64,000 bases of DNA from Croceitalea dokdonensis DOKDO 023 (GTDB taxonomy: Bacteria; Bacteroidota; Bacteroidia; Flavobacteriales; Flavobacteriaceae). The stretch's first letter is position 1. Each line of letters starts with the position of its first letter. The translations under genes were made by a program, and so were the position numbers. Below the pieces are notes generated by a model. It was not told the DNA's origin and did not search any database. It saw nothing but the letters and a program-made list of their open reading frames with translations. Below are positions 1-52,095 of this stretch, one piece after another. The DNA is taken from the NCBI RefSeq assembly GCF_001306415.1, contig NZ_LDJX01000009.1, positions 1-64,000 of the forward strand, in the 5' to 3' direction.

Positions 1-3000
1 CCCAGTATTACCTGTTATGGTTAGTACTACTTCATAAGAACCAGGTTCAACAAATACAAATTGAGGATTCTCTAAATTGGAGGTGTTACCATCACCAAAA
101 TCCCATAAATAACTTACTGCGTTCAATGAAGCATCACCGGTGAAATCTACGGTTAAAGGCGCTACACCACCTGATACATCAGTACTTGCGCTTGCTATTG
201 GCGCATTGGCAACCGAGCTTACATTAATCATCAAGGTAGCAACATCCAACTGCCCGAGTCCATCGGTAACCGTTAGGCTCGCCTCGTAGGTGCCTGGAGA
301 AGTATACGTATGTGTTGCGTCAGCATCACTGGATATGGGACTATTATCTCCAAAATTCCACTCATACAGTACAATTCCATTGTCATCGGTTGAGTTGCTT
401 CCTGTAAACTGAACAAACAAGGCTGCAGCTCCATTTGTTGGTGTAGCTTCTGCCACTGCCACTGGCGGTTGATCAGCCCCGGTAACAGTTACATTGACTG
501 TGGCGGTTGCCGTTAAACCACTCTCATCTTCCACAACGTAGTCAAAAGAATCCGAACCTATAAAGTCAAAATTAGGGGTATAGGTTACGCCGTTAGTACC
601 AATATCCAATATGGCCTCCCCATTTAATGGGTTTCCAACCGAAACAATGTTCAATTCCTCTCCATTAGGTTCAGAATCATTGGCCAATAAATCAACCAAT
701 TGAATCGCAACATTCTGTTGGGTCGTTGCGGTATCATCCGTGGCAACCGGTGGCTCATTAATGGTAATGGTCAAAGACGTTGATGCCGTTAAACCGTTTG
801 AATCAGTCCCAACAATATCAAAGGTATAATCACCTTGGGTTTCTATGGTGGGGATTCCAGATATGGTTCCTGCAATTGCATCGAATTGTGCCCAAGCTGG
901 CAATGCTCCTCCTTGATACGAAACCGTATACTCAAGTGTATTACCCGCATAACCTCTATCGAAGACACTCAAAACCTCGCTGGAGAAACTTTCTCCAATT
1001 GCTACAAAAAGGTTATCAAGAGGTGTTGCGGTAGGAACCGCTTCTGGTCGAATATTAATGAAATAGAATGTATTGTCATTCCAGTCACAGTTGGCAGAAC
1101 CAGCACCACAACCACCTCCAATGAAATCTTGTAGAACTATATATTCGTTAGGTAACACATTACCCTTATAATCAATTACTTTGTAAACCCTTAGCCCTAA
1201 TAAGTCCGGTCTGTTTCCGTTGATATTATTGCCCCCAGAATTCAAATAGTTTACGACTGCAATTCTAAAAGGTTCTGAAATAGTGGTTGCCGTATCGAAA
1301 TTAATATTGCTTCCGGCCCTTGGCAAAAGAGTTTGAAACCAAGTAGGATCATGACTAAAGTCCATTCCAGCTACGGTTCCCGTACCATTTACCTCAACTA
1401 GTCTGGCCCCGTTAGACCCTGGACCGTGTAATGCTGAAATTTGCATCCCAATAACCGGTTGATTTGGATCTGCCTGTACAAAAGCATCTGCCAAAATCAT
1501 ATCGCCCTCATACCCTGCGTTGATATTATCCTCATCAGGAAAATTAGAACTAGGCCTGAAGGTGATGTTATTAGGTGGGTCAATTGTTCCCTCATCGTTC
1601 ACGATACTCAACATACTGGACTGAAAACCAAAAGCATCAAAAACCTCTTGTGCCGTTATCTCACTGTTACCTTGACTTTGAGGTGAATAAGCCCCATGCA
1701 GTACTGCCGTGTTTTCAACAGCATTATCCGCATTGGAAACTATTTCTATACTTTCCGTGAAGGTCCGCGTACCTCCTGTTGCGGTTTGGAAGGTAAGCAC
1801 TACATCAACAAACGAACCTGCCGCAATTGTTAGCGGTAAGGTAGTAGTAGTTCCCAAATCGTCAACCAATTCGAATGTATACGCATTGGTATTTGAAATG
1901 TTTATTTCTGACACCGACAAATCTGTCGTTCCAGGATTGTTCAAACGCATCACATTCACGTCATGGACGTCTTCTGAAGGTAAATTGGTTCCTATGCGAT
2001 GGAAGGTAAAATAATCTTCTGCTGGAAATCCTCGGTCAGTACCTGGGATTTTGGTCATGTTCTCTATGGCCAATAAGGCTCCTGTTGCGGCTTCAATAGT
2101 GAAATTAAATGTCTCACTGCTAGAATTTCCGTTTCCATCCTCTGCGGATACTTCCAAAATATGAACACCCAAATCCGTAACTATTATTGGGTTGGTATAG
2201 TCAACTAAAGCAGCACCATCCAAAACAAATTGCAAGGAGGTTATACCGCTTCCGTTTTGGTCGGCCGCTGCAAGTTCTATGGCAACTGGTCCCCTAAACG
2301 TATTTGGTGCACTCTCATTACCATCAAAACTCGCAGTGATTACAGGTGAAACCAAATTTTGATCAAATGGGGCCAACCGAATATAATTGGGTTTGGCATT
2401 CTCACCACCCTCTCCGAGAGACAATCGCAATTTTCCGTCAGTTACGACAACCAACTCTGTATTTTCAAAGCTAACAGGACCATTGACGGTATTCTCTTGG
2501 TCATAATCAATAACAGTAACACCATTAACGTCCAATACGTGGTGACTATCCGAAAAGTCAGGGTCACCAACACTAATATTTGCATAATAGGTTCCATTGG
2601 GTACTTCAATCAACCAATCTCGTGTTGGATTGGAGGCCGGTGTTCTATGTCCTATGATGTTAAAGGTGGTCAGAAGCGCATCTCCTCCCCTATTTCGGGC
2701 ACTTGCAGAAGCGTCTGCAGGGGTTTCCGTACCTGGTAATACCCAACCAAATGTAATCTCTCCCTGGCTCGTTGTTTGAAGCCCATATGCGGCACCAATG
2801 TCATCTACATATCCGTCAGGAGAAACTGCAATATCATCTGGGTCTTGGAAATTAAATTGATAGATATAAACAACTTCGTTGGTAATTGTCAAATTTACTG
2901 TGACAATAGCATCCGCGTAATTTGGAGCGGAAGCTGTTATTGTGGCCGTATAATTACCAATACCCAAACCTTGTGCATCAATACCAACTGCCAGTGGTGC

Positions 3001-6000
3001 GCCTAATTCCACACTTGGCAACGTCAGCCAATCCTCTGAAGCAACCAAAGTGACCTCTTGGGATGTGATACCACCTGTACCGGTCAAGACAATATTTTGG
3101 GTTGAAACATTTTCTTGATTGATGGCTACCGTAAAGTCCAGTTGCTCTGGATTGACGCTCAATGTCAATATACCATCCTCAAAAGGTGTAACGCCGGTAA
3201 GAACAAACATATAGTCTTGATAATCACCGTTAGTGGCATCCTCAAAAGTCACCAAATAACTATTTTCAATAACATTTCCATCCCTGTCTTTGTTGGGATA
3301 TATTCTTGTTCTATGGGCAACTCCACCAGTGTTGATGGCGTCTTGGGTATAATTAATTCTATTAAAGGCATTTGAGTCCGTGTACAGACCAAAAACCGCT
3401 CCCTGAGGGTCAAAGGAATTTGTACCAGAAATAAGTGGCGGGAATAGGGTTTGAGCGTTGTCAATCCCATTGGCCAGCACCCCTATCTCATTGAGCGTAA
3501 TATCGCCCGCATTATTCACAAACCATCCAAAGGGTAGCTCCTCGGCAGGTGAATATCTGCCGACCGGGCTAATTTCAACCGGTTGATTGCCAGCCTTCAC
3601 CCAAAATTCTACTTCTACCTCATCACCTATTGGTTGGGGGTCAGTACCTATGGCCAAATTGGTCCATCCAACATCAATACCAATACCTAAGGCATCAACC
3701 ACATCTTGTAATGGCGGCTCTTGCCCTCCTTCAAATCCTGCCTTTTTCAAAGCATGAAGACCTACGGTAAATATTGGGTTTTCTACATCATCACTAGAAA
3801 CTTCAAGAACGGCTTCTTGATAACCTAAATCCGCACTGTTCAAATCAGGAGCGTAGGTAACAGTATACTCTAAACTTTCCCCAGGATTAATAGTTTGTGC
3901 CCCACCAGGGCTTACCGAATTGAATTGGCTCGCGAAAGCTCCGGATATGGTAGCATCTGTTATATTCAGAACTTCGTTACCCAAGTTTTCTATGGCCACA
4001 GTTTGCACATCCGTGTTCTCACCTTCGTTGTTGACCGTTATCTCAAAAATCAATTCTTCGGGATTAGCAGCAATCTCGGGGCCTGTAGTTGCAGGAACTG
4101 CTGCTCTTAACAAGGTCAATCTAGGGGTTCCCCCTCCTACACGATCGTATTCTGAGATATACATATTTCCTGTTAAGGGATCCTCAACTACGTCCAATGG
4201 ATCATCAAAACCACTTAATCCAGGAATACTATTATAAGCATCTTGAATATCACCGTCCAATTTAGGGTCCAGACCTAAAAGATCATCCTGTCCACTGAAT
4301 CGTGTGACGAACAACAAGCCTTGAAGTTTTCCGTCAAAAGCATCACTTTTATACTCGATAACTCCATTTGGTGACTTATTGAATGCAAAATCATATGCTG
4401 GGGAACGGTAATTTGGATCTGGGCCGAGATTATCGGGATATTTGGCTACATCGGTATCCGTGCCCACTTGGCCCGGTATTCCACTGTAAGGGACACCCCC
4501 ATGGTTCAATACAAATTCACCACGATATGGATTTGGATGACCATGATATGAACCTCCCTGGGATTTGAATAACCAGTCCTTTTGGGTTTCACCGCCGTTT
4601 AAGGCAGGAATATCACCTCCAATATCGGCCAGCGTCCTTCCATCTATTCTTCTGGCAATCTCACCTGTTGCACTTAAGTAATCCGAAGTGGCAGGCGAAT
4701 TAGGGGAAGTACTGTTGTTGCCTGCGGTACCGTTGGTGGGAATGTATAACCAACCATTGGAATGCCAGGTAAGGTCATAAGCGTTTCTTACCCCAGTGGC
4801 AAAAATAGTAACAGGTGCGTTGGTGGCATATGGATTATAGGTGCCATCTCCCATTGTTAAACTAGCGGTTGATGCACTATTGATTACATCAATGTTATCC
4901 GTAGTAAAAACACTTAATGGAGTAATACCGGTTAACTTATCAAGCTCAACTTTTAAAATCGCAGCAGCCAGCAAGCGTTCCGGCCTAAAGCCCCAAGCAC
5001 CGTCTGGTTCACCACCTGCCGAATTACTTCCTTGCGTAATGTACATATCACCCTGTGGGTCAAATGCAAGGCTATTGGTTAAGTGGTCCTTGGTAGACCT
5101 TGGTAAATGAATCACCAAATCTTCCACAGTACTCAAATCAGGCCCACTTAGTTTGGTCAAAACGCCATCCCATTCAGGGCCATTGGTAACGGAGGCCGCA
5201 CTATGGGTGATATAAGCGACCAAGTTATCGGCGGTTGAATTAGGGTCAAAATCAAAACCAATGATTAAACGATCGTTGTTTGTTCTAGGTCCGGTAACTG
5301 GATGTGGCGCTCCATTTAATTCAGGAGAAAGAATCTCTAGATTGCTTAAAGTACCATCCGCGGCCATATCCCATCGGTAAATTTGTCCGTCCGACTGAAA
5401 ATCACCTATGGTGCTCGCATAAAGTTTGCCATCTGGACCGATAGTCAGGCTTGAAAATCTTTGATTTTCAGTTCCTGGACCCAGTAAGGCATCTCCAAAC
5501 ACTTGAATGAATTCAACCCCTGTCAAATCCCTTGCCGGCACAGAGGTATCATCCAACTCCCCAGTAGTGAAGGTGGATTCAAACGGAATAAAGTTCAGTC
5601 GGTCATTGATATCGCCAATTAGATTTGCTTCTATATTTCCTGATAACCGGAAGATATAGGTGGTAAATTCTTTTAAATCGGCAATTGGAGTTAAGGTAAT
5701 GGCATCGCCTCCTCCCGTATCGTTTGCATTGGAGGGTACGAGTATTTCACCATTTGCGGTAACCTCAAAAAGACTGATGTTCCCTGCAATCGTGTTCTCA
5801 TCCAACTCATAACCTGCGGGAACCACGAGCTCCACATTGATCTGTAGCTCTTCCAATGCCACATCTACCGCATTATTGGCCGGAGTTACATTGGTAAAGA
5901 AAGGTTGGTTATTTACTGAGCCTAGGGTAACCTCCAAAGCGTTTATTTTCGTATTAAAACCACCGTTTGCATCAATGGTCAACCTACCATCAGAAACGGT

Positions 6001-9000
6001 TACCGTGGCAGTACCAGAGGTAAACCGTGTAGCTGATCCTTCTGGACCAGTGGGTACATATGAATCAATAATATTGGTTCCTTCCACATTAATGGTATGG
6101 CTTGGTGTATTATTTTCGCCATCAATTTCTGGATCACCTACCCCAACGGATACATTGTATGTACCGTTAGGCACCTCAAGCTCCCAAATTCCCTCTGTGT
6201 TGACACCATTGGTACCACTGCCATTATTGACATCGCCATACTGCATATGAACAAGGGTATTTTGCAGAATGTCGATTCCGGCAACACCTCTGTTTCTTGC
6301 ATTTTGAGAAAGGTCTAAGGACGTTTGCCCGTCAACGGTCAACCAACCATAGTTCAGTCCATTTTCCCTAAGACCATATCCCAAACCAGAATCAACTTCG
6401 TATCCAACTGGTGGAACATCACCTGGTAATGAAAAATTAATGTTTACGGGATTAAAAGCGACCATATTGTCGGATTGTATGGCAAAATCCTCAAAGGTGT
6501 ATTCAACCAAAGTACCTACGTCTTCACGTCTTTTGGTTGCAAAGATTCCTGCAAAGCTTAAATCCAAGTAATTACTATTGCCATTGATATATGCTGCGGG
6601 CAAATCCAAAGAGCCCAGTTCAACCTCGGTGCCTCCATCCAGGGCATAAAATCCTGTCAGCAAATCATTATCCAAATCCACAAACAACCTTAGACTTACC
6701 ACACTATTATTCAATCCGTTGACTACTTGTTTAATGTTATCTGTATTGTTTGCCGATACAGCATTTACTTCTGAACGAATTTCTACCTCCCCATTTTGGA
6801 CTGCAACTAACTTTACGAAGTTATCCTCATCCAAACCAAACCAGATACCAGCTTGTTCGGAATTATTATCACCATCTGTGTACGGATTCACTATGGTAGT
6901 TGAAATACTAAAATTGCCATAAGATGAAGCGTCAATTCCTACACCCAAGGTGTTTATTTGAGAATTAGTTTCAGTACTTGTACCGGGTTCTACAAAAGCA
7001 ATTCCTTTATTGGCTGTAACAATCAAATTTCCATTTGAAAACGCCAATTGATCCGGTTCAAAACCAGGAACATCCGGATTGGAAATTGTACCATCTTCGG
7101 GAATTCTTTGGGAAGGATTATCTACCATTGTGAAACCCGTATTGGCCAAACCTCCCTCTGTACCATCAAATGTCAAATTAAATGGAAGGGCAACTTCTAT
7201 TTCATTACATTCCAACGTACTAATTGGAAAGCAGCCAGCGATGGGATCTACCGCCGCAGGTCTTATATTTCTGGCGACTACAACGATGTCTTGATAATCA
7301 AAGCCCGAAATATGTTCTTCCGTAGCGATAATGTAAGCATCGTCTTCACCTGGAAGGTCGTATACACGTATATGATGGGGTATAGCATCTGCAAAAGTGT
7401 TCAATACATCTTGGCTAAAGAGTTGTCTATTGTTAAAGAAAGGCCACTCACTATAAAAACCAAACTCTTGAATACCTGGATCAAACTCCAAAACGCCGTT
7501 TGTAGGCGCATTTAAGGTTTGACCATTGGAAGCAGGAGAGTTATCAACCGTGAAAAGTTCTGTCAAGGTATTGTTATCTCCTGCGGGGTACCATCCAAAG
7601 GCAACTATTGGATTATTAGCGGTAGGTCCATAAACACTTAAAACCTCCAAAGTAATCGGTGCCTCTATTGCCCTTACAAAAGTCTGTGCATCAATCTCAT
7701 CCCCTATCAAGTCATTATAGGTAGAACCATTTGGCAAGTCAATTAGGTTAGTCGTGGCATCGGTATCTCCCACATTTACCACACCAGAACCTAAGTGAGT
7801 GTCCAAAATCCATTGTAGTGAGGGTTCATTGGAACCTCCAAGGCCTTCTTTACCCAATCCATTTAAGTCAATTATAATGGTATCAGCATTTGTACCTGAG
7901 ATTTCCAATTGGGCGAACTTTGGCCCAACACTACTGGGATCAAAACTAACTACAAATGAATCTGAGTTTTGGGGTGCGATTACACTAGGTAGACCGATCA
8001 CTTCAAAATCCCCGCTATCCGGACCTGTTATCTGAATCTGTATGTTCTCAAGGTCTGCATTTCCTAAATTTGAGATGACAATAGACTCTTGATAGGTTTC
8101 ACTTCCACTGGCCACGGCATCACCAACAATATTATCAGTACTTGCCACAATAACTGGTGATGGCGCAGCAGCATTTCTTGGTTTTAAAAGAACGATTTGG
8201 TCCCTACCAAAATCTGATACGTAGATGTTTCCGTTGGTGGTATCCTCTATTAAATCCAATGGATCTGCAAATCCTCCAAACCCAGGGATTCCCTCCTTAA
8301 AAGTACCAATATCACCATTAGGTCCATCAGGGACCAAAGCGATGATATCACTACTGCCACTGTATCTTACCACTAAAAGGGCTCCCTGAAGGTTACCATT
8401 CTCGGCATCACTCTTATATTCTATCACACCATTGGGTGATTTATTAAATTCAAAATCATAGGCCGCCCCTCTATAATTGATATCGGGAACCACTCCATTG
8501 TAGGCTGAATTTGATACGTCTGCATCCCCCCTATTCATGACAAACTCACCCCTAAACGGATTTGGATGTCCGTAATATCCAATGCTGGAATTGGGATCCA
8601 CCCTGAATAGCCAATCCCTTTGGGTATTATTTCCATTGGATGCAGGAACTATAGGATAATTGCCGCTAACATCATCATGGTCGTAAACCGTACCATCTGG
8701 CCTTGGCATATCATCAATCGATGCTGGTGTGTTACTACCGCCGGCAGTACCATTGGTTGGGACGTATAGCTGACCATTGGAATGCCAAGCCAAATCGTAT
8801 GCATTTCGTATACCCGTAGCATAAAGTGTCAAAGGCGCATCTACATAATATGGATTATATAGATTATCCAGCAATGGAGAATTAACATCCACATTCTTTA
8901 TGGCATCTATATTTTGGGTCGTTCTCACATTCAGCGGTAATGTGGCCGGTAATTTTGAAAGGTCTAATTTTAAAGTAGCAGCTGAAAGCATACGCTCTGG

Positions 9001-12000
9001 TCTGTTGCCCCAAGACCCATCGGGTGCTCCTCCCGCACTATTACTACCTTGGTTGAAATAGAGCGCATTAGGTTCTCCGGGTCTAAATGCAATACTATTG
9101 GTTAAATGATCTCGTATAGAACGGGGTAAATCAGTTACCAAAACCTCTTCTGTTTGAAGATTTGCACCTGATATTCTTGAGATCTTTCCATCCCATTCGG
9201 GAGCACCGGACAACCCGCCCGACTGATGGGAAACATATGCGACCAAATTGTTGGCCGTGGCTGATGGATCAAATACCAATCCGATAGCAGCTCTGGAAGC
9301 ATAGGCACTTTTCCAAGCACTCAAGACTTCTTCGTTTACCAAGGTACCATCTGCGGCAATATCATATCGATTGATATCACCATCAATTTTAAGCGCATAC
9401 AATTTGTTGTCCGGTCCAATGGTTAAGGTGGTATACTTACCCGCAGAACCAACGACCCCGTCATTATCAAATGCTACATTGTCCAGGTCAGTATTTCCAC
9501 CCGTGTTCCCAGATCCGGTACTAAAGGTCGATTCAAAAACTTCGAAAGGTTCTCCACTAAGGTCGGTGACCCCATCGATTCTAAAAATATATGTTGTATT
9601 GGATTCCAACGGTAAATTCGGATTCAGGTTAATGGCATCGCCACCCCCGGTTCCATTTACAGTTGAGGCAATAGGATTTTGTTCGCCTACCTTGAACAAT
9701 TGAACTGTTGAGGTGTTAATGGTGGAATTGTCCACCCCAAACACCAAAACACCATCATTATTTGGCGCCCCATTGGGCAAGAAAAGATCATTTGCCGAAA
9801 TATTGGTGTTTACCGAGATTCCTGTGGAACCATCATTAGGTATTACCCCAACCACCCGTGGGGATTGAGGTTGCCCATCTGTTGCAACGATTGTCGCATA
9901 GTTAATCTTGGTATTCGTACCACCACTGGCATCGAGAGTCAATCTACCATCATTTACCACCACAGTGGCAGCGCCCGTTGTAAATTGGGTTGGAGCACCA
10001 CCAGTCCCGGAAGGGATAAAACCATCAACTAGGTTTACTCCTTCCGCATTTATCGTATGCTCGGAATCAATACTGGTAGCATCACCTACGCCAACGGTAA
10101 CAAGGTATGTGCCATTAGGAATCGTAATTTCCCAAACACCTTCAGTTGCATTGCCAAGTGTACCTCCAGTATCACCATATTGCATGTGCATTAAGGTTTT
10201 CTGAAGAATATCCACGTTTACATCCCTATTTCTACCATTACTTGTCAAATCAAGAGGTGTAGTTCCATCCGTTTCTAACCATCCATAGCTAAAACCGTTG
10301 TTGCGATTTCCAAAAGCATCACCTGAATCTTGCAAATAATCTGCTGGTGGTACAGTTGCCGGGTCAGAAAAGTTGATGTTTGCGGCAAAATCGTTGGACT
10401 CTGGGGTAACCGTAAGGTTAATGGTGATTTCCGCATTATCATAGCCTAAATCTGGAATGTCTTGTGCAAATACAATTTCGCTATAATCTCCTGGTGGTAA
10501 CTCAGAAGCGTCAATATTAAAGGTCACCTGCCCTGTGGTACTGCTGGTAGGGGTCAACACCCAAGACTGCGCAGACTCCAAGGAATAATCAATCAGAAGA
10601 TTGGCATTTTCAGGAGTAGCAGTAAGTATTGCTGTCTGACCGGGAACGTTTCCATTTTCTTCAACAGTAAAATTGAGTTCAGGGACATCAAAAGTCAAAG
10701 TGGGTTGCACAGTCTCCTCGGTGATTGCGAAATCATCAAAACTAGCCGTAAACTGGGTTCCATTTCTATGTGTGGCATAGATTCCGGCAAAAGTTACATT
10801 GTCTTGCCCGCCTAAAGGGTCAATATCCCTTCCTGCAAAATAATCAGCAGGAATTGGCAAACTACCTAGAAGTGTTCTTGTACCCGTACCAATGGTATAA
10901 AATGCTTCTGCCTGCAATGTTAACGGATCAATCCGCAACTCCAAGACAACGTCGTTTCCAGAAGCTCCAAGTGCTTCTTGTACTTGACCTCCTTGCACTG
11001 GATCACCATCTGTTGAGAAACCATTTACCTCGGTTCGTAGTTCTATATTGTTATTGTTGACGTTTAGTTTTACAAAATTATCCTCATCATAACCAAACCA
11101 AATACCTCCTTGCGCAGAACCACCGCCGGTAACAATATTGAGTAATGTTGTTTGTATGGTAATGGGTTGGGTTACGTTTTCCAATCCAACACCTAGGGTA
11201 TTAACTTGATTGTTGTTATTTGCGCTCTCCGGAGGATTTCTGAATGCAATACCTGCTTGGGAAAGGATTTGTAGTTGACCATTGGTTAATGTTAACAAAG
11301 AGGGTTCATAACCGTTGACATCAGCGTTTGAAATTGGTAAGTCACCTGCCCTTCTGGCTTCGGAGTGTTCCAATGCAACTGTGAAACCGGTTCCTAGACC
11401 TCCAGATTCAAGCAGGGTTCCATCTACTTCTGACGAAAAATCAAAATTGACCGGAAGACTAACCACAATAGCTTCACAATCAAGTATACTTAAAGGGTTA
11501 CAGGGGACGATTTCGTTGACATCAGTTACATCAATCGTTATTTCGGCTGTTTCAGACAACTCACCGTCACTTACCGATACGGTAAGAGTATATTGGGAGG
11601 CAGTCTCAAAATCAAGTAACTGTAACGTACTCAATTCGCCAGTAGTGTCACCAATGACGAATACCCCATCTTCGTTACCATTGGTAATCACGTATGTAAG
11701 CGCTTCATCATCAGTAGCCAGAACGGTACCGACCAAAGTTCCGATTGCTACATCCTCAGAAACGTTAAATGTCTGAGCGGCCACAACCGGTGGCGAATTT
11801 TGCGGTGCCGCTTCTGTTACCGTCACCGTCCAAACTTGCTGGGTAGTACCGTCCTCAGCCGTTACCGTATAATCAAAAGGCGAACTAAAGTCCTGTGGTG
11901 TTCCCGATAGCGGAGATACCGTAGCTCCCGCCGAAAGCACTATTGTGGGCGATAGTGTGGTAAGCTCCGTTCCGTTTTCCACCTCTATCGAAACCGTATG

Positions 12001-15000
12001 TGCAGCAGTGTCTATCGTCGCCGCACCCGTCTCATCCGTTAACGTAAAGGACACAATATCGGTCTCCACATTCAGCGCAGGTGCTGGTAATACCTCAATA
12101 GCCATTATGATGGCGTTGTTTACGACACTCGTAAAATCGATGTTTAGCTCTCCATCCGTTACCGCAACAGCAATCGTTTCTATATAGGGCGTCTTCTCGC
12201 CTGCGACTGCAAAAAGATCCAAATCGTCAATGACCAAAACATCTTCCATGGTTACGTCAAAAATCCTTGCGCCAGTAGCCGTCTGGAGGTTCTCCACCAT
12301 ATGAAGTGCTACCTGATAGTTGCCATTAGCAATAGGAAACGCATAACCAAAGTCAGACTGATTATCCGCAAAACGCCTAGGATGGTATAAATCACCATTA
12401 CCACCTACCACTCCGTAATCAGAGATGCCGATATCCGAGGTGCCCACGAGGTAAGAGGTGTCCTCCGCTGTGAAAAGGTCGCCATTGAGCGAGTAGTCCG
12501 CACCGCCAACGTTGATACGGTAAGGGGCGGTAATCTCCACCAGTTGTGCCTCCGTAACTGTTAGGTCTGCGTTCAATACTGCAGGTTCAAAGCCCTTTGC
12601 TGTGGCGATGATACTATTGCTACGGGTATCTCCATCACCGAGCGACGAAGTATCCATGAAAAAATCAACTGGGCCCAGCGCTGCCGGTGGTAACGTTACC
12701 CAATCGTTGGTGCCCGTCTCATCCGTATTATCGTCTATCGTCAGTGAAATATTAGTTGCGCCAGGGCCAGAAAGGTCGCTTGTGAACGTTCCGGTAGCTC
12801 CCTCTGCCAGAGTATCACTAATGGTTGCTGGATTAAATACCAATGTTCCGTTTACAGGTAAAGCAGTACTCTCTACCACCTCTATATGGGTAATCTTGGA
12901 ATTGAAACCTCCAAGGCCTGTCATGGTCAACAGTCCGTCTGTTACTTCCACCACCATAGTCTCCACCACGGTCTGACCAGGAGTTGGAACAAAGGCGGGT
13001 ATGATGGTATAGCCCTCTAAGGTGGCACTATGCCTACTATCCACACTGGTACTTTTATCACCCAAACCTAGAGTGATTTCATAAACTCCATTGGGAACCT
13101 CTAGCTCCCAGATAACTTCATTACCTCGGGGCTGACCCACCCAACTACCGATGTTATCGCCTTGAAAATGTACCAAAGTACCTTCCAATTTTTCTTGTAG
13201 GGTCGCTGCTGAATAATTTTCTGCTATCCTATTTCTGCCCGCTCCGGCAAATGCACCGGCACCATTAGTTGGATCGTCATTTGAAATATCAATCGGAGTG
13301 CTGCCATCAGATGCTAACTTCCATCCGTAGTTGTAGTTGTTTGTGCCTACGGTAAGAACGGAATTGCCAAATTCCTTTCCATAATCCGCTACATAACCCG
13401 TTGGGGGTGTTGTTGCAGAAGGATTGTTCTGGAAATTGATGTTGGCCACAAAGGGAAAGGTCTCCACCACATCGGTAACCGTAATGGCAATATCCTGCTG
13501 GGCGGTCAACGACCCTGAATCGGTCACGGTAACCTGTATATTATAGGTGTTGTCGGAATTATCATCGCCAGGCGTTTCAAAGTCGGGGGCGGACAGAAAG
13601 CTTACCTCGCCAGTGGATGTGTCGATATCAAAGAGCGCTGCATCGTTTCCGCCACTCAATGTAAAAGTGAGGGCCAAACTAGCTGGGTCATCTTCAACAT
13701 CAGTGGCATCTACATCAATAGCCAATGTCTGGTTCTCCTGGGCATCGACAGAGGCAAGACTGTTGATCACAGGTGTCTCATTGGCCTTACCATCATTGAT
13801 AACACCGGGAGTTCCCAAATCACCTATTCCAAAGGCTGCTATTGCCGTAGACCAATTAGCACCGTCGTTATTATCATCAGTTGGATTGTTCAAGGCCATG
13901 GACGCTCCGGTCGGATTTGGAAAATTTATACCTCCATCATATTCTACCCTGTCTATTTCGTTACCGTCTGCATCAAAAAGAATAATTTCATCGGCCCCGT
14001 TTGCAAGTGCATAACCACTGTACGCATAGTCAACTAGTTTACCGCCATTGCTGTTGACCTCGGCATTGTTGCCAAGGACCAAATAGCCTCCAGTAGGTAT
14101 TACCAAAGGGGAACCGTTAGCTATGACGTGGGAATTGGTGCCGTTATCTTGAAGCGTCCAACCCTCAATATTCACATCGGTGGAACCTGCGTTGTACAGT
14201 TCTAACCACTCCCCCTCAGTATCATCAACAGCATCAGGATTTTGCATGATTTCGTTGATAACAATTTGCGGGAGGGCTGGTGCCGCTGCTGTGACCGTTA
14301 CTGTCCAATCCTGTTCGTCACCGTTCTCCGCAGTTACCGTGTACACAACGGAATTGGTAAAATCTTGTGCAGTTCCAGAACTCGGAACTATCGTAGCATT
14401 ACCTGAGATTGTAATCGTAGGGGTCAGCGCTGTTAAGACAGTGCCATTGGTAACCTCAGCAACTATTTCATGGGCCGTGGCATCAATGGTAGCCGTGCCA
14501 GTCTCATCATCCAAATTAAAAGTTAGAATATCATTTTCTGATGATCGGGGATCGGTTGCCTGAGCTATAGTGGCATAGTTGATTTTTGTACGAAATGCAT
14601 CTTCATTATCGGCATCAATTGTCAATTTACCATCCAAAACCTCAACGATGACCGTATTGGATTGAAAACGTCCAGAATCTCCTGCCGGCAAATTGGGATC
14701 AACCACAAATAGTGGAATAGCAGTTTCTCCTTCAACATTGATAAAGTGCTTAGGAGAATCATCCGGATTGTTATCTGTTGCAGGGTCACCCACACTAACG
14801 GTAACTTCGTACCAACCATTCGGGAGTTCAATTTCCCAGACCCCTTCGTTGCTTCTTCCTCCAGACCAAGAAGAAATGTCGTTCCCTTGAACGTGTACCA
14901 ATGTATTGAGCAAGAGATCTACCCCGGCTTCTCCACGATTTCGTCCAGTACCATTACTTGGAACACTAAGGTTCACAGGAAGCCCATCGGACAATTTTAT

Positions 15001-17991
15001 CCATCCATAGGTAAGGCCTCCTTCATTAACCCCGTAAGGAAGACCAAAGTCTTTAACATATCCCGTTGGGGGGGTTGTATTGGCATCTTGAAAATTGATT
15101 TGATACGGGAATGTGGCGACAAACGGCGCTTCAACGGTTATTTCTTGGGTCGTTGTATCGGTCAGTCCACCATCGTCTGTCACTGTCAAGGAGATGGTGT
15201 ATGTGCCGCCGGTAGTGTATTGATGGGAGGTCGTTTGGCCAGTTGCCGTGTTGCCATCACCAAAATTCCAAGAATAGGAAGCAATAGTGCCATCATCTTG
15301 GGAATCGGAGGCATCTAAATCCACCGTCAAATCAGAAATAGATGATGTAAAACTTGCGTTAGGCTCGCTATTCACTAATTCTGTCACTACCTGAGAATAG
15401 TCCGTACTAAGCCGGATAGGACCGATATTGCCCGTATTACCGATACTTGTGGAACCGATAAAAATACGTGCTAATTTTGGTGTACCCGTTATACTTTGTG
15501 AGGTAGTTGCCTCAATCCAATTGTTATCGCCCTCGCTTAGGGTAGGACTTAGTGTATATTCATAAGTTACGGATCCTGAACCATCCCAAACACCTTTGAC
15601 CACAAATTGTAGCAATTGGTCAGCATATACATCTTGCTCACCGGCATTGGAGCTTGGACCGCCCAGTCCAAGTCTCGCCTTAATGCTTCCGCCATAGTTT
15701 CCTATGATTTGTCTCACCCATGCCTCACCTTCTGCATTTCCGTCCACACGGACAGCAACCCTAACACGATTGGTGTTTGAGCTGCCCAATTCGGAAAATT
15801 TAAAGTAAGTGCCGTAATAAAAAGGCACTCCGGCAGACAATTCCACAGGATTATTGATAAGGGTTAGATAATCGACAGTGGTATCAACATTCTCAATCCT
15901 TACCGAATTTATAGATCCGGGAGTCAGTGCCGTGGCGACCACGGGAACATCTGGTTTTAAGCCCTCGGGAGCCCATGCCCCGCTTGAAACAACACTTAAA
16001 TCGCCGATTGGATAGTCAAAATTTTCTACAAAGGAAAAACCACTAGGTGCAGAGACGTTTACCGTTCGGGCAACCTGGGTTGCTGGATTCCCAGCAATAT
16101 CTGAAACATCATAGGTTACAGTGTACGTAGCAATGGTGTTGGTATCGACCACATCACCCCCTACCACAATATTTGCCGTGATGTCACCGTCTAGGTCATC
16201 TTCAGCGGTGGCCCCGGGATCGTTATAGGAATCGCCTTGGATCAATTCCAATGGATTGTCTCCCAATAAAGTAATTATAGGTGAAGTAATATCCCCTTCT
16301 ACCTCATCGGTCACCGTAATGGCTATGTCCTGAAGGGCGGTCAGTAACCCAGAATCGGTCACTGTTACCTGTACATTATAGGTATTGTCTGTATTGTCAT
16401 CACCCGGCGTTTCAAAATCGGGAGCGGACAAAAAGGTCAGAACACCTGTTCCCGCATCTAATGAAAAAAGTGTGTCATCCACGCCACCACTAAGGGCAAA
16501 GGACAGTCCCGAACCTTCTGAATCATTGTCATCATTGGCCTCCACATCGATTACCGCAGTTTGGTTCTCGGGAACGCTCACCGTAGCCGCGCTGGTAATC
16601 GAAGGGGCTAGGTTTACGGGCGCTGGCAACACCTCAATGGCCATCACTATGGCATTGTCAACAACACTTTCAAAATCGATGTTCAACTCGCCATCGGTTA
16701 CCGTAACATCAATCGTCTCTATATATGGGGTCTTTTCACCAGCTACAGCGAACAGGTCGAGGTCATCTATCACCAGTGAACCTTCTATATTGACATCAAA
16801 AACCCTAAGTCCGGTACCTAGGAGAAAATTCTCCACCATGTGGACCGCAACCTGGTAGTCACCATTGGCTATAGGAAAGGCATATCCAAAGTCTGCGCCA
16901 CTGTCAGCAAACCTCCTGGGAATATATAGGTCACCGTTGCCGCCGACAACCGGATAAAAATTGGTACTTGTACTCGAGGAACCAACTAAGTATGAGGTAT
17001 CCTCAGCTATGAAAAGGTCCCCGTTCAATGTATAGTCCCCACCCGCAACATTGATGCGGTAGGGGGCCGTAACTGTTGCAGGAGGCGTTGGCACATCTTC
17101 CATTACGGAAAAACTATCATAGGAAATATTCAAAGAGCCAGCTGTCGCCCTTCTAGTGCTGGTCATAATCCCCGCGAAACTCAAAGAATCGGTTGTAACG
17201 TTATTGTCATGGTCTGTGCCTTGTAAGAACGTTGAAGGAATCGCTAATGCGTTGGTTCCATTGACTACCTGTACCTCGGGAGCACCGTCTAAGGAATAAA
17301 AACCGGTAACGGTATTGGTGTTTGGGTCTACGGAAATTCTAAGGGAGATATTATTAATACCAGTTATGGAAACATTATCCACATTTATCTCGGCTATCGT
17401 TAACGTTTGTCCATTGCCACCTAGACCATTGGCTGATTGTTCCACAGCCAACTGCACTCGCTTGTCCCCATTTCTATTAACAAGAACCAGTTTGGCAAAA
17501 TTGTTTTCGTTCAATCCAAACCAAATCCCGGCCTGTTGTGAACCATTAACCGGGGTGGTGGTAGAAAAATCTGGTGTCGCAAATGTAGCTTCTATATCAA
17601 TCACGTTGGAAGATGCAATAAAACCAACACCTAGGGCATTCATTTGTGAATTGGTCTCTGTACTATTTGGCGAACCTGTAGTTTGTCTAAAATTGATACC
17701 CTTTGTTGCCTCTACATTCAATAGCCCACCTGAAATACTAAGATTGTCGGCTATTAAGCCTGGCACATCATCGTCGTTTATTGCCTCGTCAGCTGCCAAA
17801 GGCGAGGTCGGCGGGTCGACCATCGTAAATCCCGTTGCAAGAATGCCCCCTTCGGTTCCGTCAAAAGTCAGGTTTACGGGTAAAGTGACATCAACCTGAT
17901 TACAAGGTAATGTGCTAATTGGCGTACAATCTTGACCAAAGGTGACAAAAGATGTCAAAACCAAAACTGAGATGTAGATGAACTGCTTCAT
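1..17991 (-). CDS. Giant secreted multidomain lectin/malectin/beta-propeller protein (C-terminus outside window)
   Basis: One minus-strand frame is open from ATG 17991 to base 1, so at least 5,997 codons are present and the C-terminus lies to the left. The start is chosen because [15 protein letters not shown]...FGQ is a signal peptide (residues 1-20). An in-frame ATG at 18141 exists but lacks one. Domains in order, with rough residues: ConA-like lectin 25-297; malectin 308-455; cadherin 459-567; DUF5011-like 568-655; PKD 878-960; malectin-like 960-1142; DUF5018-like 1150-1238; lamin tail 1240-1375; cadherin 1395-1510; malectin-like 1511-1700; malectin 1818-1967; DUF5018-like; cadherin 2060-2155; lectin 2160-2430; malectin-like 2525-2695; Big_5; sorbosone-dehydrogenase-type propeller 2840-3275; choice-of-anchor D; lectin 3588-3840; malectin-like 3860-4040; propeller 4175-4630; anchor D; malectin-like 5040-5215; CADG 5658; PKD pair 5842-5997. 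The family suggests an extracellular glycan-binding or adhesive role. A T9SS tail is expected but not visible. Exact domain edges are estimates. Confidence 0.9.
3322..7239 (-). repeat. Intragenic module copy B (lectin, malectin-like, Big_5, propeller, anchor-D)
   Basis: Residues about 3585-4890 of the giant protein are the second copy of the module at 7252-11514. The propeller shares long runs with copy A: both read [14 protein letters not shown], then LQG, then a V-x-R-x-SG strand. The lectin here begins [11 protein letters not shown], close to the N-terminal lectin of the same protein ([12 protein letters not shown]). The protein therefore appears to have grown by repeated internal duplication. 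Confidence 0.75.
7252..11514 (-). repeat. Intragenic module copy A (lectin, malectin-like, Big_5, propeller, anchor-D)
   Basis: Residues about 2160-3580 of the giant protein repeat the domain order seen again at 3322-7239. Both copies have a lectin entry with a cysteine pair before the strand ending SLPVN/ALPFN, an INF...YGW...NRG malectin-like module, and an Ig-like Big_5 domain. Both then have a propeller carrying [24 protein letters not shown]-like and [13 protein letters not shown] motifs. The copies are diverged, so the duplication is old. Copy A has a BACON-like strand domain between lectin and malectin that copy B lacks at that point. Confidence 0.75.
12080..12545 (-). repeat. Malectin domain paralogue 2 (pairs with 16625-17075)
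   Basis: This is the second copy of the canonical malectin domain, residues about 1818-1967 of the giant protein. It follows a BACON-like domain, whereas copy 1 follows a ConA-like lectin. Direct repeats of this size could allow recombination that deletes or adds about 4.5 kb of coding sequence in frame. Confidence 0.75.
16625..17075 (-). repeat. Malectin domain paralogue 1 (pairs with 12080-12545)
   Basis: This stretch and 12080-12545 can be aligned base by base over most of their length. Both encode APYRINV, then [13 protein letters not shown], then [33 protein letters not shown] and MAIEVLPAP. The pair is about 4.5 kb apart inside the same gene and is the most recent-looking duplication within it. 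Confidence 0.8.
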
Positions 17992-18229
17992 GTTTAATAA
18001 AGAATTAGGTGATGTTGGAAATTTTCTTTTTTGCGCAGGGACATAACCGTCAAACCATATAGTATGGGAAGGCGAAAGTGAAAGTCTATTTTTCGTTGAA
18101 AGCTGTAAACGGGATGTTGGTAGAAGGTAATTTTTTCGCATAAGTAAACTTCTGGTTATGTTAAACAACCAAGCATATCGTATGCGTTACATGTAAAGAA
18201 TGGGGTGCTAGTATCACCAACCGTTCACA

Positions 18230-18238
18230 GGGGGGGGG
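18230..18238. repeat. G9 homopolymer tract
   Basis: Nine consecutive G residues lie roughly midway between the divergent starts at 17991 and 18515. Such tracts are prone to slippage, and their position here could alter promoter spacing. The tract is seen directly; phase variation is inference. Confidence 0.6.
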
Positions 18239-18470
18239 TATGTTCAAATGAAGTGATGGGTAAATGTAACTTAGCAGCAGTTGATACTAGGCTAGAAATT
18301 TCTGATTTTCGATAAAATACCTATTTAATCGTTTACCGTGAATTTTTGTCCAACTACTCGGATAAACACCTTAAACAGCAAATGGTATGCTTCTAATGCA
18401 ATCCCATTTTCAAATAATTTTTCTGTTTGTAACTTATTTAATCCCCTATTCATCGCTTTAATAATTTCCA

Positions 18471-18478
18471 TATTTTTG
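18471..18478 (+). promoter_or_regulatory. Candidate -7 promoter element for the ThuA/kelch gene
   Basis: TATTTTTG fits the Bacteroidota TAnnTTTG consensus 36 bp before the ATG at 18515. No clear TTG -33 element lies at the usual distance, so support is moderate. Confidence 0.45.
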
Positions 18479-18514
18479 GATATCCCCCTTTTTTAATGCC
18501 TTACCGAAAAAAAA

Positions 18515-21500
18515 ATGAGACGAAACCAATCCTTCTTATCCCTTGTGCTATTAGCCTGCAGTTTAACTGGCTCCTCTTTTAGTCAGGAAATTACTTCCTT
18601 GGTCCTTATCGATGCTAAACGTGATATTGAATTAAACCCACTAAATGAGAAAAACACGGTTGATTTAGAAGAATTAAACTCTGATGAGATAAGCATATCT
18701 GCCAAGATATTGGGGAAAATAGGGAGTGTTGCTTTTTTTGTAAATAACGATCTGATACAAGTTGAAAATAATCCTCCTTATGCCCTTGTTGGAAATAAAG
18801 GTGATGACTTCTACTCTTGGAAACCTAATTTAGAAACCTATAACATAACCGTTCAAATTTTTAGCGGAAGAAGTGGGAAAGGATTACTTCTGGATACCCA
18901 TTCCATAGAAATAGTCTTTACCAAGAGCCTAACACAGCCCAAAATCAACTCTTTAATACTTGTGGATGCCGAAAGTGATCAGGACATTGCTCCCATTGCT
19001 GAAGGTGCAATTTTTAATCTTAACCGTCTGAATACTTCAAAACTGAATATCAGGGCCGAAGTGTCGCCAAATACAGAAAGTGTGCAATTTGGATATCAAG
19101 ATAATCCCATTTATCATTTAGAAAATCTCCCTGTTTATGCCATCGGGGGAAATTCAGGAGATGATTATCGAGACTGGCCATTTGAACTTGGAGAAAATTT
19201 GGTTTCCGCACAGGCTTTTTCCGAAAATAAAGCAGGTGGGGAGCCAGGAGCTAAATTCGAGGTAAACTTTTCAATTATCGACGAACCAGAAACACCAAAT
19301 TTACCGGTAGTACTTAGACTAAACAGTGGAGGACAAAAAGTAACCATTGATGGGATTACGTTTGAAGAAGATGATTACCATCAAGGGGATGGAAAATCCT
19401 ACTCAAATCCAAACATTGAGGAAATTAATGGGACAGACTTAGATGAAGTCTATAAAAGCGAGCGAAGCACCACATCAAATCTCGGCTCTTTTGGGTACGA
19501 AATACCCGTGACAAACGGGACTTATCTGGTGAGGCTTCATTTCTCAGAGATTTACTGGGGGGCCACTTCCGGTGGGTCTGGTGGTAACGGTAAACGTATT
19601 TTTGATGTTACCTTGGAAGATAGAGCGGTTCTCCAAAACTTTGATATGAATGCTGAGACCTTGCCAATGACCGCAATAGTGAAAGAGTTCGAAACTTCCG
19701 TGGTTGACAATGAACTCAATATTTTTTTCCAGGCAACCGTAAACCAACCAAAAATAGCAGCCATTGAAATTTTTGGAAATGGAAACATACTGCAAGAAAA
19801 AAGCTGTGGCTTGACGAACCTGGCCAATTCTGAATTTTCGAAAGTTGAATCCCATAGTGTTAAAATTGATGGTAAACTATACGTTTTGGCGGGTTTTCTC
19901 AGTGGATTAAAAGTAACGCCCGCCACAGAAATATATGACCCACAAACAAATCGTTGGTCTTCCGGAGCACCTATGCCCTTGGCGGTGACCCATATGGGCG
20001 CGGTAGGGGTTGGAGATGAGATTTGGATTATTTCCGGTTTTGCGGGTAATCACCCGGGTGTGGCCACGGACAGGGTTCAAATTTATAACACCAAAGATGA
20101 TTTTTGGTATGAAGGACCGCCTATTCCAGAGCCTAGGGGTTCTGGAGCAGCAGTTTTCAACGAAGGTAAAATCCATTTTTTTGGGGGTTTGTTGCCCAAC
20201 CGTTTCACAGACGTTGGAGACCATTATGTATTGGATGTCAATGACCTTGAAGCTGGTTGGCAAAATGCGGCTCCATTGCCCAACCCAAGAAATCATTTAA
20301 GCGCAGCATCTGTCAATGGTTTAATCTATGCAATCGGCGGCCAATATGGTCACGACAGAGGGGTTTCTGACCAGAACCTTTTACATGAATATGACCCAAT
20401 ATCCGATACTTGGACCAGAAAAGCGGACTTACCCACCGCGCGATCTCACTTTGAACCTGGCACTATGGTCCACAATGAAAAAATAATCATTGTAGGTGGC
20501 CGAAAGGGTAATACTTTTTTTAGTGAAGTTACAGAATACGATCCTGCCAAGGATAGTTGGACAGAAAAATGTGAACTTCCCACAAAATTACTTGCACCGG
20601 CAGCGAAAGTATTTGGTGATAAATTGATAGTTGCCAATGGTGGGGAAAACGGAACATGTTGCCCAAAAAACACAACCATTGCAATGACCATAGAGCCAGA
20701 AACAAAGGGAATGCCAGACCTAAATATCCTGGTTTATCATGAAACCAACGGTTTTCGTCACGGCTCCATTGAAGCCGGCATAGCGATGATAGAAGGTTTC
20801 GCGGATGAATTTAATTGGAACATAACCGTTTCTGACCAGAGCTCCCATTTTAATCCGGAGTTCCTGAATACCATCAATACAGTAATTTGGTTAAACACAT
20901 CAGGAAACAACCTCTTAACTACATCCGAACAAATTGCTTTTGAAAATTATATCCAACGCGGTGGTGGATTTATAGGTATACATGCTGCTACGGACACCTA
21001 TAGAGATGGTTCTTGGCCATGGTACAACGATTTGGTAGGTGGGATTGTCCAGACCGCACCAAACCATACGCCTAATAATACAAATAACACCTTACAAATA
21101 GTCAATAACCATGTAACCGTTAATCATCTTGGTACAACTTGGGAAAAACTAGATGAATATTATTATTGGGATTTAAACGGAGGATATTTATCCCCTGATA
21201 ATATTGTACTGATTAAAACAGAAGCTACTGGAGCCAACTCCTACGATAGGTCAAGACCCATAACCTGGTACAAACTTTTTGATGGCGGAAAGTCTTTTTA
21301 TACTGCACTGGGTCATAATGCATCGGATTATGAAACCGATGAAAATTTTAAAAAAATGATTCTTGAAGCAATTTTCTGGACCGGAAATCATGATTTTTCT
21401 AATTTGGATGAAACTCCCCTCCAGTCCTCACTTCTTGCAGAGAGTATAAAAGTTTATCCTATCCCGGCCAATGATAACGTTTTTATCTATTCAGAATATT

Positions 21501-21679
21501 TCAACCCAGATAATCCGGCAAGTTATAAATTGTATACTATGGAAGGAAAACTAGTCCAACACGGTCAACTGATTGGGGAGAATACTAAAGTCAATTTAGC
21601 AGGAATGTTGGATGGTTATTTGCTTTTGTTAATATCTAATAAGGATGTCACCCTCACAAAATTGATTATCGTGAGGTAA
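18515..21679 (+). CDS. Exported Ig-malectin-kelch-ThuA protein with T9SS sorting domain
   Basis: A 1,054-residue exported protein. Residues 1-24 are a signal peptide. Two related Ig-like repeats follow (about 25-135 and 137-255), sharing LVLIDA/LILVDAE openings and GD-D/Y-W turns. A malectin domain spans about 262-425 (RLNSGG...GT.Y.VRLHFSEIYW). Kelch repeats span about 430-730 with GG pairs and W-S/T blades. A ThuA (glutamine-amidotransferase-like) domain spans about 735-965, with YHETNGFRH and GGGFIGIHAATD. The last 80 residues (IKVYPIPANDNVFI...LIIVR) form a type A T9SS sorting domain, so it is secreted or surface attached. ThuA proteins are linked to disaccharide (trehalose/sucrose) metabolism, but the extracellular substrate here is unknown. 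It is divergent from the giant malectin/lectin gene, suggesting a shared glycan target. Start: first ATG, A-rich leader, signal peptide. Confidence 0.9.
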   Translation: MRRNQSFLSLVLLACSLTGSSFSQEITSLVLIDAKRDIELNPLNEKNTVDLEELNSDEISISAKILGKIGSVAFFVNNDLIQVENNPPYALVGNKGDDFYSWKPNLETYNITVQIFSGRSGKGLLLDTHSIEIVFTKSLTQPKINSLILVDAESDQDIAPIAEGAIFNLNRLNTSKLNIRAEVSPNTESVQFGYQDNPIYHLENLPVYAIGGNSGDDYRDWPFELGENLVSAQAFSENKAGGEPGAKFEVNFSIIDEPETPNLPVVLRLNSGGQKVTIDGITFEEDDYHQGDGKSYSNPNIEEINGTDLDEVYKSERSTTSNLGSFGYEIPVTNGTYLVRLHFSEIYWGATSGGSGGNGKRIFDVTLEDRAVLQNFDMNAETLPMTAIVKEFETSVVDNELNIFFQATVNQPKIAAIEIFGNGNILQEKSCGLTNLANSEFSKVESHSVKIDGKLYVLAGFLSGLKVTPATEIYDPQTNRWSSGAPMPLAVTHMGAVGVGDEIWIISGFAGNHPGVATDRVQIYNTKDDFWYEGPPIPEPRGSGAAVFNEGKIHFFGGLLPNRFTDVGDHYVLDVNDLEAGWQNAAPLPNPRNHLSAASVNGLIYAIGGQYGHDRGVSDQNLLHEYDPISDTWTRKADLPTARSHFEPGTMVHNEKIIIVGGRKGNTFFSEVTEYDPAKDSWTEKCELPTKLLAPAAKVFGDKLIVANGGENGTCCPKNTTIAMTIEPETKGMPDLNILVYHETNGFRHGSIEAGIAMIEGFADEFNWNITVSDQSSHFNPEFLNTINTVIWLNTSGNNLLTTSEQIAFENYIQRGGGFIGIHAATDTYRDGSWPWYNDLVGGIVQTAPNHTPNNTNNTLQIVNNHVTVNHLGTTWEKLDEYYYWDLNGGYLSPDNIVLIKTEATGANSYDRSRPITWYKLFDGGKSFYTALGHNASDYETDENFKKMILEAIFWTGNHDFSNLDETPLQSSLLAESIKVYPIPANDNVFIYSEYFNPDNPASYKLYTMEGKLVQHGQLIGENTKVNLAGMLDGYLLLLISNKDVTLTKLIIVR

Positions 21680-22422: not shown

Positions 22423-23550
22423 TTAAATTTTAAGGTATATTTCCTTGAGCTCTTCCACTTTAACACGTTCTTTCCATTTGGGGCCAAGGGCATTTTCCCA
22501 TAAGGGATCCATGGCAAGGGCTATGTGGACCATTTCATCCAGTTGATCATCGGAAAGTTGAACACATATTCCGGTTGGTAGGACAATTAGATGCTTTTTC
22601 AACATCTGCTTGAACAGGGTAACCCCATCGGGATAAAAAGCATTTAAATGTTGGAACACAAGACAATTGCCCAATCCGTGTTTGATACCCAACACATGGG
22701 ATAGTCCGTAACTCATGGCGTGTGCCACGCCTACCTGGGAATAGGCAATGCTCATACCCCCATGCCAAGAGGCCATCATTAATTTTTCCTCCGCATCCTT
22801 TTTTGGCAAATCTCCCAAAAATACGTCTTGACATAAATCGAACGCTTTTTCACCGTAGCTCTGGCTAAATGCATTTAAATACGTACCCTGGAGTGATTCC
22901 ACACAGTGGATAAAACAATCCATGCCCGTATAAAACCATTGTTGTTTTGGAACGCTTCCCAAAAAATCAGGATCTAGTACCACTTGGTCAAAGGTGGTAT
23001 AATCCGAGTTGATGCCAAGCTTCTTTTGGGGACCGGAAAGCACTGCGGTCCTTGACACTTCTGCACCGGTTCCACTAATGGTAGGAACACCTACATGGTA
23101 TAAACTTGGCCTACCTACCAAATCCCAGCCTTGAAAATTTTCTGCCCTTCCTTGGTTGCCCAGCATCACGGCAACGGCCTTTGCAAGGTCCAATAAGGAA
23201 CCACCGCCTATGCCTACGACCCCTGAGGGTTGCTCATCAAAATCTTGTCGTATTTTATGGACCAAGGCATCTACTTGTTCCGTTTTGGGTTCCTCATTGG
23301 CGGAAACAAAAATAATTTGGTCGTTGAACAGCCATGGAATTCTAGTGACCAAGGTTTTATCTTGAAAAAAGTCGTCCACCAAAAAAATAAAAGGTGCATC
23401 GGAGTTTTTTCTTTTGGGCAAAAGAATATCAGCCAATTGGTCAAAACTACCGCGACCGTAGACAACGCGGGGTACCATGGGAAAATTTCTAAATTCTGTT
23501 TTATTTTTCAGTACTCTTTTTTTAGCATTAGACAACTCCTTCATACTCAT
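22423..23550 (-). CDS. Iron-containing alcohol dehydrogenase, KdnB-like (3-deoxy-manno-octulosonate 8-oxidase candidate)
   Basis: A 375-residue group III (Fe-dependent) alcohol dehydrogenase. GIGGGS (residues 114-118) binds NAD(P). Metal ligands are D211, H215, H277 and H291, with spacing 4/62/14 against 4/63/14 in E. coli FucO. The gene overlaps the HAD gene by 4 bp, and that gene overlaps kdsB. In Shewanella, KdnB oxidises C8 of Kdo so that the aminotransferase KdnA can make 8-amino-Kdo (Kdo8N), which KdsB activates as CMP-Kdo8N. The operon context is the main reason for the KdnB suggestion. No kdnA-like aminotransferase is in this window. The Fe-ADH assignment is firm; the substrate is inferred. 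Confidence 0.8.
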   Translation of the reverse strand: MSMKELSNAKKRVLKNKTEFRNFPMVPRVVYGRGSFDQLADILLPKRKNSDAPFIFLVDDFFQDKTLVTRIPWLFNDQIIFVSANEEPKTEQVDALVHKIRQDFDEQPSGVVGIGGGSLLDLAKAVAVMLGNQGRAENFQGWDLVGRPSLYHVGVPTISGTGAEVSRTAVLSGPQKKLGINSDYTTFDQVVLDPDFLGSVPKQQWFYTGMDCFIHCVESLQGTYLNAFSQSYGEKAFDLCQDVFLGDLPKKDAEEKLMMASWHGGMSIAYSQVGVAHAMSYGLSHVLGIKHGLGNCLVFQHLNAFYPDGVTLFKQMLKKHLIVLPTGICVQLSDDQLDEMVHIALAMDPLWENALGPKWKERVKVEELKEIYLKI

Positions 23551-24251
23551 TTTAAATACATCAACAGTTCCTTTATACCCCTTAACTCCAAATACGCTGT
23601 GGATTCCATGGCTTTTTTATGCACCATTTCATGGGCCCAGGTGGTATGAAAAGGGACATGCACCGCTTTAGCGCCTATATTGATTAAAGGTATAACATCT
23701 GACTTAAGGGAATTCCCTACCATCAAAAATTCATCCAACTTAATCTGTAGGTTATTTAACAAACCCCTATAATTTCCTTCTTTCTTGTCACTCAACACCT
23801 CTACATGGTTAAAAAACCGTTTTAGCCCAGATTTCTCAAGTTTGCGTTCCTGATCTAACAAATCTCCCTTGGTCAAAACAATGAGTCTATACTTGGGCAT
23901 CAATGCCGTAAGCACTTCTTCGACCCCTGGCAACACTTCTACCGGATGGGCAATCATTTGTTTGCCCATATCCAAAATTTTCATCAGGGTTGAACTAGGG
24001 ACATTTCCGTTGGATAAGTCCAAAGCGGATTCTATCATGGATAACATAAAGCCTTTGATACCATAACCATAAAGCTCCAGATTTTCTATCTCTGTTTTAA
24101 ACAACTCCTGATCGATCTTATTCTTGGTTTCATAGCCCTCTAAAAGTGCTGCAAACTTTTCCTCGGTTTCCCTGAAGTAGGTTTCGTTGACCCACAGGGT
24201 ATCATCGGCATCAAAACCTACGACTTTAATATGGCTAAAATCTACTTCCAT
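23547..24251 (-). CDS. HAD family hydrolase
   Basis: A 234-residue haloacid-dehalogenase-superfamily phosphatase. FDADDTLW (D14, D16, T18) is motif I, IVLTKGD is motif II, a conserved lysine follows in [12 protein letters not shown], and MVGNSLKSD is motif III/IV. A helical cap occupies about residues 25-110, so it is a capped HAD and not the cap-less tetrameric KdsC type. It overlaps kdsB by 10 bp and the iron dehydrogenase by 4 bp, implying translational coupling. It might supply a Kdo-pathway phosphatase step, but could equally be a general nucleotidase of the YjjG type. Confidence 0.85.
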
Positions 24252-52090: not shown

Positions 52091-52095
52091 GTCCT

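Follow-up and report, generated by a model that had tools for sequence, protein, structure and literature searches.

The first 64,000 nucleotides of contig NZ_LDJX01000009.1 of Croceitalea dokdonensis DOKDO 023 (assembly GCF_001306415.1), hereafter the window, contain a divergent pair of genes for large exported proteins. The minus-strand open reading frame (ORF; complement 1..17991, ATG at 17991) encodes a giant protein of at least 5,997 amino acids with malectin domains and sugar dehydrogenase-like propellers. The plus-strand gene (18515..21679) encodes P0001, a malectin-kelch-ThuA protein of 1,054 amino acids with a type A tail of the type IX secretion system (T9SS). The giant may well be a secreted matrix or surface lectin of an undescribed family that is associated with exopolysaccharide (EPS) and possibly acts as a sugar oxidase, with a malectin-kelch protein as its co-worker, an interpretation in which we place about even confidence.

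Self-comparison of the giant revealed a core unit of about 1,050 amino acids that is present twice, the copies being 42% identical. Core unit 1 (7237..10383, minus strand) consists of a galactose-binding-like domain (GBD), an immunoglobulin (Ig)-like domain, a propeller (8170-9489, delimited by model A3), a choice-of-anchor D domain and an unnamed beta domain. The same order is found in core unit 2 (3157..6447, minus strand), with the propeller at 4087-5529 and the anchor D and unnamed domains at 3157-4086. A core-unit profile built from five genera and searched in named genomes identified 72 loci spanning Bacteroidota (Flavobacteriaceae, Cyclobacterium, Algoriphagus, Neolewinella, Dyadobacter and Rhodocytophaga) and Actinomycetota (including Georgenia, Arthrobacter, Demequina, Microbacterium and Serinibacter, at about 37-43% identity). 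The neighbors of the core loci include genes for Wzz/Wzc, Wza, Wzx, WcaJ-type sugar transferases, uridine diphosphate (UDP)-sugar dehydrogenases and glycosyltransferases. When EPS reference families, most of them confirmed by Pfam, were counted at loci with a flank of at least 3 kb, an EPS gene was found near the core in 20 of 51 loci, compared with one of 39 control regions of 20 kb from core-holding genomes (Fisher p 2e-5 to 4e-5). About 13 genera contribute these 20 loci, with related genera over-represented, and 19 of the 51 loci still count when each locus's own reference genes are barred. The 20-kb regions replaced a control set of ThuA/malectin loci, whose flanks were too short. In an independent phylum sample, the core, a secreted protein of 1,271-1,274 amino acids, Wza and Wzc are encoded on one strand in an operon-like arrangement in two genomes (G687 and G832), and a third (G652) exhibits Wza/Wzc/Wzx genes divergent from the core gene.

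The malectin-kelch part of P0001 was found to be one conserved two-domain block that recurs together with the core in other organisms. In Microbacterium (L160) and Demequina (L163) it follows the C-terminus of the core protein as a fusion, in Arthrobacter (L148) it is encoded inside an EPS cluster at a distance of 4.5 kb from the core gene, and in Georgenia satyanarayanai it adjoins Wzz/Wzc, apart from the core. Among 300 Microbacteriaceae genomes, malectin-kelch is present in exactly three and the core in exactly the same three. The hypergeometric probability of this overlap is 2e-7, or 2e-5 once the centre genome is left out, and two of the three genomes appear closely related. Of 396 Bacteroidota genomes, three give a strong kelch match and two of these hold the core (p 0.02 without the window genome), and G687 carries a kelch-only gene about 5 kb from its core. 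Taken together, fusions, adjacency and co-occurrence speak for a functional connection between malectin-kelch and the core, though not for a fixed gene pair.

The propellers may connect the giant to sugar oxidation. By sequence, the match of the giant to the GSDH family is borderline (25.4 bits against a family cut-off of 25), and searches of PDB sequences with the core and propeller profiles matched no chain; by structure the assignment is clear. An AlphaFold2 (AF2) model of propeller 2 (predicted local distance difference test, pLDDT, 95.4) gave pyrroloquinoline quinone (PQQ) sugar dehydrogenases as its best PDB matches, followed by HHIP, a non-enzymatic relative with the same fold, and the top 16 matches were such enzymes or their homologues. 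TM-scores to the nearest structures were 0.53-0.77 depending on normalisation, at about 12-16% identity. Three residues, His149, Arg248 and Asn249, are invariant in all 69 aligned family members from both phyla and correspond in alignments to the His and Arg-Asn motifs of YliI from E. coli. In soluble glucose dehydrogenase (sGDH), this His is the general base and Arg-Asn is the PQQ-ketone pair (PMC6881810).

Several observations weigh against the interpretation of the giant as an EPS-associated lectin and possible oxidase. The surroundings of the giant contain no EPS genes, either in the window or in the genomes G081, G001 and G105, so that the EPS link of the window species rests on homology. 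The acidic residue of the catalytic site is Ser in 68 of the 69 family members, and the Lys/Arg residues that contact PQQ are not recognisable, the arginine stretch of YliI aligning with DPLDVVED in a region where the alignment is weak. In the Flavobacteriaceae sample, core and malectin-kelch overlap in a single genome (p about 0.10, not significant). The pair itself is missing from congeners and from a syntenic locus. Full-length P0001 was absent from all seven congeners, one of which has a 55% match confined to the kelch part, and from all 150 other genera of Flavobacteriaceae; a single-protein genome scan with P0001 likewise returned no relatives. The giant is kept in four other genera (57-66% identity over about 1,900-2,400 amino acids, in proteins of 2,982 to 7,099 amino acids). 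In G081, which belongs to another genus, it sits at the equivalent chromosomal site, flanked by nine genes of 46-81% identity in conserved order, and this locus lacks both P0001 and a small acyltransferase gene.

The malectin domain of P0001 (residues 265-416, 19307..19762, plus strand; 97 bits) and kelch propeller (19814..20677, plus strand), which together form the unit fused or adjacent to the core elsewhere, are followed by ThuA (residues 737-956, 20723..21382, plus strand; 161 bits), all identified by Pfam, and by the T9SS type A sorting domain (residues 980-1052, 21452..21670, plus strand), which scores just under the curated cut-offs (25.4 bits against 27 in Pfam, 20.4 against 23 in NCBIfam). 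Among 151 genera of the family, the malectin-kelch part was detected only in G051 (60% identity over residues 21-730, without ThuA) and G026 (61% over 258-729), and several genera encode a separate ThuA protein that is 44-58% identical to the C-terminal third of P0001, with a T9SS tail in G036. Because the two parts thus occur apart in other genera, P0001 has the appearance of a fusion between two secreted proteins that are encoded separately elsewhere. A galactose oxidase identity of its kelch domain was considered and rejected, as the domain's match is to generic kelch and the galactose-oxidase set domain is missing. The 523-bp spacer between the giant and P0001 contains no match to the Bacteroidota -33/-7 promoter pattern.

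From the fusion-like makeup of P0001, the lack of conservation of the pair in genus and family, and the G081 locus, where the giant and nine syntenic neighbors persist without P0001, it could be argued that the adjacency in the window is accidental, a malectin-kelch-ThuA gene having been inserted beside an unrelated giant with which it has no common function. This explanation deserves serious consideration, but appears somewhat improbable in view of the Actinomycetota, in which malectin-kelch shows fusion, adjacency and exact co-occurrence with the core.

The EPS-lectin interpretation can also be stated in a stronger form, in which the propellers work as active PQQ sugar dehydrogenases after secretion, oxidising EPS or free sugars while kelch and ThuA process the product. 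This form is rather unlikely, given the Ser at the acidic position and the unrecognisable PQQ contacts, the lack of a cytochrome c domain by Pfam in the present part of the giant, and the example of HHIP, which uses the same fold without catalysis. It draws support from the fold and the invariant His and Arg-Asn in both phyla, from the precedent of GlxA-CslA, a secreted oxidase with a polysaccharide synthase (PMC11022532), and from ThuA-GSDH-cytochrome c fusions in the same family. The latter are ThuA-GSDH-PKD-cytochrome c proteins of 1,143 amino acids in two family members (L233, 1642-5073; L234, 4266-7697). Many genomes of the family sample also contain frames of similar length that match ThuA. 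The modelled propeller may be either an enzyme or a binding domain. A yet more specific proposal, that the giant EPS-operon proteins of both phyla oxidise exported EPS through duplicated PQQ-type propellers and that the malectin-kelch protein, here with ThuA, acts on the oxidised sugar, is distinctly improbable in our judgement; if true, it would amount to a post-export chemical remodelling of the bacterium's own EPS. EPS clusters are usually read in terms of synthesis and export only.

The fused proteins demonstrate the combination of ThuA with such propellers outside the pair, and they provide the best support for the idea of the initial annotation about ThuA. That annotation proposed a shared extracellular system for oxidised disaccharides or glycans. 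A shared extracellular sugar system is plausible because of these fusions and of the fusion, adjacency and co-occurrence of malectin-kelch with the core; the exact pair, whose co-occurrence in relatives had been suggested as a check, is not conserved at close range, an outcome that the initial annotation had named as refuting its hypothesis. The idea is thus partly supported. The initial annotation knew of no described system of this form, and within the open-licence literature, examined for malectins of bacteria together with T9SS, EPS, kelch or PQQ dehydrogenase, no paper describing the core family was found. Each of the domains is known, but the family, its occurrence in EPS clusters of two phyla and the malectin-kelch link appear to be undescribed.

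Malectin, kelch and ThuA are known from secreted sugar-active proteins, and the window encodes a galactose oxidase, a glycoside hydrolase family 31 (GH31) protein and an alpha-amylase-family protein with a carbohydrate-binding module of family 48 (CBM48) at a distance of 26-36 kb. Both proteins of the pair might therefore serve the breakdown of external, for instance algal, polysaccharides, an idea implied by the checks that the initial annotation proposed. This explanation is considered unlikely, since Pfam detected no glycoside hydrolase or SusC/SusD pair among the ten genes beside the pair, and the relatives of the giant, including those in actinobacteria, sit with EPS synthesis and export genes. 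Judging from these homologous loci, the target of the giant is more likely the cell's own EPS than an algal glycan. The galactose oxidase family protein (47978-50638, minus strand) is T9SS-tailed, scores 446 bits to the bacterial galactose oxidase 9g8h over residues 41-516, and retains the copper-radical residues (Cys, Tyr, Trp, Tyr-His and His motifs) by eye. The GH31 alpha-glucosidase and the alpha-amylase-family/CBM48 protein (50759-57392, minus strand) are encoded near an Atg22-like transporter.

The great size of the giant, its secretion and its repeated cadherin/Ig/PKD scaffold with lectin domains also recall the gliding adhesins SprB and RemA, giant secreted surface proteins of Flavobacteriaceae. 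A role as a gliding or surface adhesin of this type is nonetheless very unlikely: homologues of the giant (6,201-7,099 amino acids) end, by eye, in a type A-like T9SS tail, no PorP/SprF gene was detected among the ten window neighbors scanned, and the core family occurs in actinobacteria, which are not known to possess the gliding machinery or the T9SS.

The remaining parts of the giant all lie on the minus strand. The protein opens with a Sec-type signal sequence by eye, as does P0001, and Pfam identified two malectins, cadherins, Ig, PKD and LTD domains in addition to the GSDH-type propeller match. Self-comparison revealed three copies of an unnamed domain A (32-43% internal identity), of which copy 1 (17092..17934, residues 20-300) is lectin-like by position and copies 2 and 3 lie at 10714-11502 and 6469-7233. 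Malectin domains 1 (16612..17070) and 2 (12079..12531) are 78% identical to each other. Five GBDs with 33-48% internal identity and weak matches to Pfam AGA-YXIM_GBD are located at 14542..15129, at 12865-13467, within 7237-10383, within 3157-6447 and at 2371-2862. The unnamed domain that follows choice-of-anchor D within 3157-4086 (residues about 4755-4940) has a conserved terminal FED..NGDYQDY motif; it was modelled at a pLDDT of 95.8, and in a fold search against the PDB it gave no clear match of its own, the Ig-like half alone being matched. RbmA appeared in this search through Ig-like domains only and was not used as evidence.

Two PKD domains (1..462) are located at the contig break. The ORF is incomplete at its C-terminus because base 1 of the window is base 1 of the contig, and the missing end could not be assigned, as the remaining contigs yielded PKD repeats only, among them ORFs at each end of contig C6 (L097, 1-15207). 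Both ends of C6 break in PKD-rich ORFs (frames of 1,035 and 1,574 amino acids); the assembly has therefore probably cut further giant proteins of this genome as well. The initial annotation had described a divergent pair of exported malectin proteins, with sugar dehydrogenase-like propellers in the one and ThuA and a T9SS tail in the other, and this description is confirmed by the two ORFs, their signal sequences and the Pfam scores against curated families; the span assigned to the pair (17992-21679) covers the spacer and P0001, while the giant lies outside it. Beyond P0001, genes for an iron-containing alcohol dehydrogenase, a HAD hydrolase and a KdsB-type cytidylyltransferase follow in a row (22423-24970, minus strand) whose order is kept in G081, and which could be a set for 3-deoxy-D-manno-octulosonic acid (Kdo) or 8-amino-Kdo of lipopolysaccharide (LPS).

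In the proposed mechanism, secretion in Bacteroidota would proceed via the signal peptide and the T9SS, as the near-threshold tail suggests, and in actinobacteria via Sec. Domains and gene context suggest that the EPS of the cell itself is bound by many glycan-binding domains (malectin, GBD and lectin-like), for which Ig, cadherin and PKD domains form the scaffold. The duplicated propeller would bind, or, considering its invariant residues, possibly oxidise a sugar of this EPS. The malectin-kelch protein, to judge from fusion and co-occurrence, would act as a co-working secreted factor, which in the window species would additionally have gained ThuA, and the two proteins of the pair may work together. 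To our knowledge, the biofilm proteins of such bacteria are almost unknown. A conserved extracellular family encoded in EPS clusters of both phyla would be a likely organiser of the matrix, perhaps even a polymer-modifying enzyme.

In Vibrio cholerae, RbmC and Bap1 are secreted matrix proteins that combine a propeller with lectin domains, and RbmC is encoded beside the EPS (vps) synthesis genes. The core family resembles them in the secreted propeller and lectins and in its encoding within EPS clusters, the latter at the loci of relatives rather than in the window; however, RbmC and Bap1 are far smaller and have a propeller type of their own, and the core and propeller profiles match no PDB chain. 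SprB and RemA differ in the tail and phylum spread discussed above. CdrA and LecB of Pseudomonas aeruginosa are described as secreted proteins that hold the matrix by binding to EPS which the cell itself makes (PMC7484184, PMC6522473); their domains are unrelated to those of the giant and their secretion differs. The nearest propeller folds in the PDB are those of sGDH, Asd/YliI and auxiliary activity family 12 (AA12), which share the His and Arg-Asn with the giant, whereas the acidic residue and PQQ-contact arginines are not kept in the giant, whose propellers are embedded in a much larger protein. GlxA of the Streptomyces GlxA-CslA system is a kelch-type oxidase that is secreted and cooperates with polysaccharide synthesis (PMC11022532), but the kelch of P0001 lacks the galactose-oxidase set domain, and the real galactose oxidase homologue of the window is the protein at 47978-50638. 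The ThuA-GSDH-PKD-cytochrome c proteins of Flavobacteriaceae unite in one polypeptide the ThuA, GSDH propeller and PKD domains that are spread across the pair, where ThuA and propellers reside in two proteins. By analogy, the giant family would work most like RbmC/Bap1 or CdrA, while none of the sequence tests applied places it in either family.

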